Shown here one piece after another: positions 4,269 through 18,140 of a DNA stretch of 36,084 nt (positions within the stretch are counted from its first letter, which is position 1; every line of letters starts with the position of its first letter). The translations under genes and the position numbers were made by a program. Source of the DNA: a bacterium (GTDB lineage Bacteria > Patescibacteriota > Minisyncoccia > JAUYLV01); assembly GCA_030649025.1 (NCBI GenBank), contig JAUSGO010000039.1, positions 1 to 36,084 of the forward strand. The letters are read 5' to 3'. Below the pieces are notes generated by a model, which saw nothing but the letters and a program-made list of their open reading frames with translations, ran no database searches and was not told where the DNA came from.

Positions 4269-4286
4269 GCTTTTCTGATCACGAAC

Positions 4287-4316
4287 AAAATACCCGCCTA
4301 TCTAGGCGGGTATTTT
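4287..4316. terminator. Rho-independent terminator (bidirectional)
   Basis: AAAATACCCGCCTA and TAGGCGGGTATTTT pair over 14 bases around a 2-base centre, with T-rich ends on both strands. It ends the 3200-4268 operon and could also stop minus-strand transcription through 4333-4569. Confidence 0.88.
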
Positions 4317-4332
4317 GTCGAGAGATATAAAT

Positions 4333-17860: not shown

Positions 17861-17890
17861 AAACATAACCCGTTTATGCGGGTTATGTTT
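17861..17890. terminator. Perfect 12-bp hairpin, probable bidirectional terminator
   Basis: AAACATAACCCG (17861-17872) and CGGGTTATGTTT (17879-17890) pair perfectly around a 6-base loop. T tracts are short: three T on the plus strand and four on the minus. It probably ends the 15386-17570 unit, the minus-strand RNA from 17920-18140, or both. Confidence 0.5.
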
Positions 17891-17919: not shown

Positions 17920-18140
17920 AAAAAACCGCGAAGGATATCGCGGCATGTTACCCCGCACTTAAAGTTGCTGTGCGGAGCGCTTTCCTGCATACGCTGGATA
18001 TAGAACTTGTCAAAACAAGTATTCCGACAGATAATCTTCTCCGAGGATCTAAGCGACTTTAAGTGCGGGGTTTCGTTTTGTTGCTCCGACAAGGCCATCG
18101 GAGACAAAACTTCATTCTTCAGGCGGGGCTCCGCTTTTTT
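17920..18140. ncRNA. Candidate structured non-coding RNA locus
   Basis: Four nested or consecutive helices lie in 220 bases without a recognisable gene. CCCCGCACTTAAAGT (17951-17965) is the exact complement of ACTTTAAGTGCGGGG (18056-18070) and closes a ~90-base interior with ACTTGT-CAAA-ACAAGT inside (18005-18020). GTTTTGT/ACAAAAC plus CTCCGA/TCGGAG form a 13-bp stem (18075-18110). CCGCGA/TCGCGG next to A6 (17920-17943) is a perfect intrinsic terminator on the minus strand. AGGCGG/CCGCTT plus T6 (18121-18140) is one on the plus strand. A long closing helix with an open interior recalls 6S RNA, but no identity is claimed and the strand is undecided. Confidence 0.5.

Follow-up and report, generated by a model that had tools for sequence, protein, structure and literature searches.

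Dispersed, hairpin-bounded elements with covarying arms in a reduced bacterial genome, probably a family of mobile extragenic palindromes

The window, that is, the whole stretch of 36,084 nucleotides analysed here, is contig C39 of a 1.23 Mb genome (G000). The locus of interest within it contains a long-range hairpin (HP1), the interior enclosed by its arms, and a second, bulged hairpin (HP2) located immediately to the right, with further hairpins on both sides. The positions of these features are as follows (R1 and R3 being models described below):

17861–17890, no strand assigned: hairpin of 12–13 bp, upstream of the element and separate from it, with no counterpart upstream of other copies
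17925–17944, minus strand: intrinsic-terminator-like hairpin from the terminator scan, outside the element
17950–17965, no strand assigned: left arm of HP1 (terminal inverted repeat), ACCCCGCACTTAAAGT, perfect complement of 18056–18071, with compensatory changes across copies
17966–18055, no strand assigned: interior of the window copy, divergent, with a 6-bp hairpin (ACTTGT/ACAAGT); the match to R3 comes almost only from the arms
18056–18071, no strand assigned: right arm of HP1, ACTTTAAGTGCGGGGT, pairing with 17950–17965
18072–18110, plus strand: 3' module with HP2, matched by R1 with 69 bits and E 1e-14 (the window copy being in the training set), fold z of −3.6
from 18072, plus strand: linker TTC between the right arm of HP1 and the stem of HP2
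18075–18081 and 18104–18110, plus strand: lower stem of HP2, GTTTTGT/ACAAAAC
18082–18083, plus strand: 2-nt bulge of HP2, TG
18084–18089 and 18098–18103, plus strand: upper stem of HP2, CTCCGA/TCGGAG
18121–18136, plus strand: intrinsic-terminator-like hairpin from the terminator scan, outside the element

The two arms of HP1 form a perfect 16-bp inverted repeat around exactly 90 nt; the earlier note had described a perfect 15-bp helix closing an interior of about 90 bases, and both helix and interior are real, the former being one base pair longer than claimed. Perfect inverted repeats of at least 16 bp within 250 bp were found twice in the window, and any at all in 3 of 200 dinucleotide shuffles. 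The other one, at 4285–4318, is unrelated to the element by model search. The segment 17950–18071 folds far better than its shuffles on both strands (z = −6.2 on the plus and −5.5 on the minus strand). The hairpin attributed to the interior is present as the 6-bp stem listed above, although shuffled sequences fold just as well as the interior taken by itself (z = −0.74 and −0.01 for the two strands). A flanking 13-bp hairpin and terminators on opposite strands had also been claimed, and they are found, the first at 17861–17872/17879–17890 with 12 Watson-Crick pairs and one T.G, the second as terminator-like sites at 17944–17925 (minus) and 18121–18136 (plus), with three such sites detected versus 0.7 expected in shuffles. 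All of these flanking features are outside the conserved unit. The best-conserved part of the element is HP2 (18075–18110), right after the long helix, which had been overlooked.

A BLAST search of the region against its own genome revealed matches on several other contigs, and the pattern AAGTGCGGGGTTTCGT, searched with mismatches, showed 6 + 2 occurrences versus 1 + 0 for the reversed control. A covariance model of the 3' module (R1) detected 18 places in this genome at E < 0.02, and a second one covering arms and interior (R2) about 22 distinct places, with the element being present in about 25 copies (about 22–26 places). For nearly every 3' module, a 5' arm that pairs with it lies some 100 nt upstream; the letters differ between copies yet remain complementary, as in the arm pairs ACCCCGCCCTCT/AGAGGGCGGGG, CCCCCTCACTCATCC/GGATGAGTGAGGGGG, and ACCCCGCACCAAAGCC/GGCTTGGTACGGGGT. 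In the general anatomy of the family, terminal inverted-repeat arms (ACCCCGCACYAA...TTRGTGCGGGGT) form HP1 around an interior of about 80–100 nt, and HP2 adjoins it with the form TTTTGT-NN-C...G-ACAAAA and a 2-nt bulge at its foot, giving a whole length of about 120–160 bp. The stem sequences of HP2 vary in concert between copies, and the bulge recurs. At three loci (L017, L032, L040), the left side also bears a bulged hairpin (HP3) that mirrors HP2, resulting in a quasi-symmetric unit.

Since the 3' module and its matching 5' arm recur about 25 times in the genome with compensatory changes, the feature is beyond chance. Alignment A4 showed two-sided changes in 9 of 15 pairs, which none of 500 shuffles reached, and 20 two-sided cells, compared with 5.1 in the shuffles; its covariation score was 0.231 versus 0.094 (again 0 of 500), and slid controls gave far lower values than the real alignment. 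Covariation was similar in the G000-centred alignment A2. Both helices covary strongly, and the conservation of the long helix, on which the proposal of a structured feature hinged, was borne out by the compensatory changes in A2 and A4.

Beyond the source genome, R2 matched 102 of the 384 sampled genomes of the class at E ≤ 1e-3 (about a quarter; genome sizes across the sample of 0.4–1.5 Mb), with up to at least nine matches per genome, nine being scored in each. Outside the class, only 5 genomes of a 380-genome sample of the phylum matched at E ≤ 1e-5. As the training sets of R1 and R2 had included the window copy, a third model (R3) was built from 20 copies of other genomes, with no sequence from G000. 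R3 recovered 13 copies in G000 with E from 5e-15 to 1e-7, and the window copy with a modest 21.7 bits (E 0.0096) through its arms; therefore, the ends of this copy are canonical and its interior is diverged. In other copies the interior shows a conserved, strand-asymmetric small hairpin, CGGWANCGCC-TNC-GGCTTA, whose central pair varies among C-G, G-C, and T-A. Exact patterns of the 3' module of G000 gave no match in the public genome and viral collections scanned.

Comparison of related genomes revealed that the element moves. Between G091 and G023, which belong to the same genus, bases 1–670 and 821–1643 of the query were contiguous in G023, where the empty site reads ...TTAGAAAAATGAC|ATGAATAT..., while G091 reads ...TTAGAAAAATGAC (about 150 bp) ATGAAAGT.... 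The G091 element is located precisely at the boundary of two genes, after the stop of the first and before the start of the second, and this one base-exact empty site showed no target duplication. In addition, the rpmI-rplT spacer contains an element in G222 and none in G196, of the same genus, nor in G126 or G011, whereas that of G349 holds a decayed copy. Within G000, an identical copy was found at the ends of contigs C10, C40, and C32, with downstream flanks that differ between C10 and C40.

From these comparisons, the window element probably belongs to a family of palindromic extragenic elements that are mobile, non-autonomous, and hitherto undescribed, and that are REP/MITE-like in behaviour. 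Mobile extragenic palindromes are a known kind; the architecture, the clade, and the covarying long-range arms are not described in the literature searched. The open literature searched for repeats, MITEs, REPs, and integrons in CPR contained no such description, the window had no Rfam match at the gathering threshold, and the loci of other copies had no credible one at permissive thresholds. The claim of an undescribed feature without a match to a known Rfam family thus stands as far as searched. A single sub-threshold match to the DUF3800-III RNA model appeared at L052 (26.8 versus 43.8 bits), because of which PF12686 (DUF3800) was searched for in G000 and not found; a DUF3800-linked RNA was discarded on both counts.

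By this reading of a mobile family, the hairpins would be recognised as folded DNA, either single-stranded or cruciform, by a putative recombinase or transposase acting in trans, which would excise the unit and paste it at gene boundaries. The window copy, its ends intact and its interior diverged, sits between two terminator-like sites. By analogy, the most similar known logic may be the single-strand transposition of IS200/IS605-type elements (HUH Y1) and their REP derivatives, a likeness suggested by insertion without target duplication, by end hairpins that carry a bulge, and by GTAG being frequent at the foot of HP2.

Miniature elements derived from IS200/IS605 share with this family the bulged end hairpins and insertion without target-site duplication, as found at one site (G091/G023). 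They differ in that no fixed target of 4–5 nt was seen by eye in the left flanks here, and in that HP1 is long-range, around 80–100 nt. Classical MITEs (DDE transposase, terminal inverted repeats, and target-site duplication) are likewise intergenic units of 100–200 bp with terminal inverted repeats; however, the exact empty site shows no duplication of the target, and the arms covary copy by copy, which argues that arm-arm pairing is maintained and not a fixed terminal sequence. Integron attC sites are also folded single-strand recombination sites with extrahelical bases next to genes, but the present copies are dispersed singly with no cassette arrays, and the attC core RYYYAAC/GTTRRRY was not seen by eye in the aligned ends. 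Both attC sites and group I/II introns, which terminator adjacency and copies inside tRNA genes had suggested, were rejected, as no core motifs were seen and Rfam gave no intron match.

A closer rival is that the element is a plain GTAG-type REP moved by a REP-associated Y1 transposase (RAYT), a known class, which we consider possible but unlikely. As in REP, BIME, and REPIN sequences, the copies are short, palindromic, extragenic, numerous, and non-autonomous, they lie near gene ends, and the absence of target duplication fits too. Among the roughly 15 copies in which the 2-nt bulge is clear, 5 show GTAG at the foot of HP2, and by eye it is present in further copies. However, GTAG is occasional, not invariant, this tetranucleotide being otherwise GTTG, GTAA, GTTC, and others, and the copies number tens instead of hundreds. 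In a published account (PMC3733652), REPs are palindromes of 20–40 bp, and the GTAG families described come from Proteobacteria, Cyanobacteria, Chloroflexi, and PVC; the present unit measures about 120–160 bp and combines two hairpins with a conserved interior.

The search for a mobilising enzyme bears on the same question. REPs are accompanied in the genome by a RAYT flanked by the repeats, and a Pfam search of G000 detected no Y1 transposase (PF01797). Across the class, Y1 genes are present in 232 of the 384 genomes, and the two checked against the REP-transposase model match it with scores under its cut-off, in favour of a RAYT. On the other hand, 12 of the 45 element-rich genomes lack Y1, and the association is weak (70 of 102 element-bearing genomes versus 162 of 282 others, p = 0.058). 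In element-bearing genomes, almost every Y1 gene examined is flanked by palindromes other than those of the element, with a weak exception at L184, and the RAYT-like loci have their own, different palindromes. For these reasons (none in G000, weak association, other flanking palindromes), Y1 was rejected as the partner. In G091, the ends of an IS200-like Y1 element form hairpins, GGAAACCCCGCAC-AGA-GTGCGGGG, similar to the HP1 arms (E 0.0076, arms alone), which we take as a lead only. At L184 (about 1970–2545), an IS200-like element of G091 shows hairpin ends GGAAACCCCG...CGGGG beside TTAC, and a similar hairpin, GGAAACCCCGGAC...GTCCGGGGAGGATGTCATT, is present upstream of the element at L028 in G000, though this genome has no Y1 gene.

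The other reading to be weighed is that the family is a dispersed, conserved structured RNA, a cis-regulatory leader or sRNA, in which HP2 would mask the downstream start codon and HP1 with the interior would act as a sensor. In other genomes the outer strand of HP2 does run across the start codon of diverse plus-strand genes, encoding (names from translations) L11, L3, L20, L33, PolA, a HypA-like protein, a glycosyltransferase, and a nucleotidyltransferase, so that the ATG of rplK, rplC, rplT, rpmG, and others is overlapped in several genomes. The interior motif and its mini-hairpin, conserved and strand-asymmetric, also favour an RNA, and they count against a pure-DNA reading, as pure DNA ends would not need such a motif. 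Against it, the genes downstream have no relation to one another and frequently lie on the opposite strand, the gene to the right of the element being on the plus or minus strand in about equal numbers, and most copies in G000 adjoin the end (stop codon) or the terminator of a minus-strand gene. In addition, the site is empty in close relatives within the same operon. A structure under selection as RNA would accept wobble pairs on just one strand, and usually more of them. Among the arm pairs of 44 aligned copies there were 635 Watson-Crick pairs, 9 that would be G-U in a plus-strand RNA, 18 that would be G-U in a minus-strand RNA, and 4 others, i.e., 95% Watson-Crick pairing with a strand bias that is not significant.

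This nearly pure Watson-Crick pairing without significant strand bias, together with the mixed orientation, fits a structure selected as DNA, as does the occurrence of copies in both orientations over unrelated start codons and gene ends. A dispersed structured RNA is therefore distinctly unlikely, although copies of the element may have an RNA role once transcribed. Regarding the structured RNA proposed in the earlier note, the structured feature with conserved, covarying helices is real, and its RNA part was not supported. A more speculative version of the mobile family, which we hold to be improbable, is a new kind of element in which the inner strand of HP2, partly complementary to the right flank, would guide the unit to its flanking target (start codon or gene end), the interior being an RNA or single-stranded DNA co-factor of the mobilising enzyme.

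The 6S-type RNA gene, or another single-copy housekeeping RNA, that the long hairpin, its large interior loop, and the flanking terminator-like sites recall is scarcely credible, contradicted by the multi-copy state, the mobility, the wobble without strand bias, the mixed gene orientation, the lack of an Rfam match, and an interior that is not conserved in the window copy. Similarly negligible are explanations by chance, by unrelated inverted repeats, or by simple terminators acting in both directions, to which the T-rich stretch after the right arm of HP1 could point, given the sequence-specific recurrence and covariation in many genomes, a stem that encloses 90 nt (far beyond terminator loops), and the insertion as a unit revealed by the empty sites.

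Several variants were also observed. A related architecture encloses whole tRNA genes, in either orientation, at L066 (G047:C7), L047 (G009:C34), L059 (G051:C2), and L033 (G000:C28), with arms and a bulged HP2 whose lower stem is GCGATTTGT/ACAAATCG-like; at two of these loci, L066 and L047, a further tRNA-Val gene apparently has its anticodon loop split by the unit. A copy without HP2 is located inside the apparent T-arm of a tRNA-like gene at L097 (G209:C18, 977–1088). A subtype without HP2, in which the right arm is followed by CARG (GGGG-CAAG/CAGG), was found at L106, L110, L112, L114, L120, L130, L132, L133, L135, and L136. Four loci of this subtype share further flanks, GRAAATTGT ... CARGCATCGGTGCGG, which suggests composite mosaics. 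Finally, two other short A/T-rich repeats at L101 (G091:C4, offsets about 971–1009 and 1221–1252) recur many times in G091, G113, G068, and G023.

In conclusion, the literature searched for what are probably Patescibacteria/CPR contains no dispersed repeat of such a kind. The hosts have gene-poor, highly reduced genomes, which would need to withstand a mobile palindrome in such abundance. The mobiliser, the precision of insertion without target duplication, and the effect of placing a hairpin over the start codons of ribosomal-protein genes are directly testable. For structured-RNA screens, the family is a caution that helices which covary in this clade can be mobile DNA.
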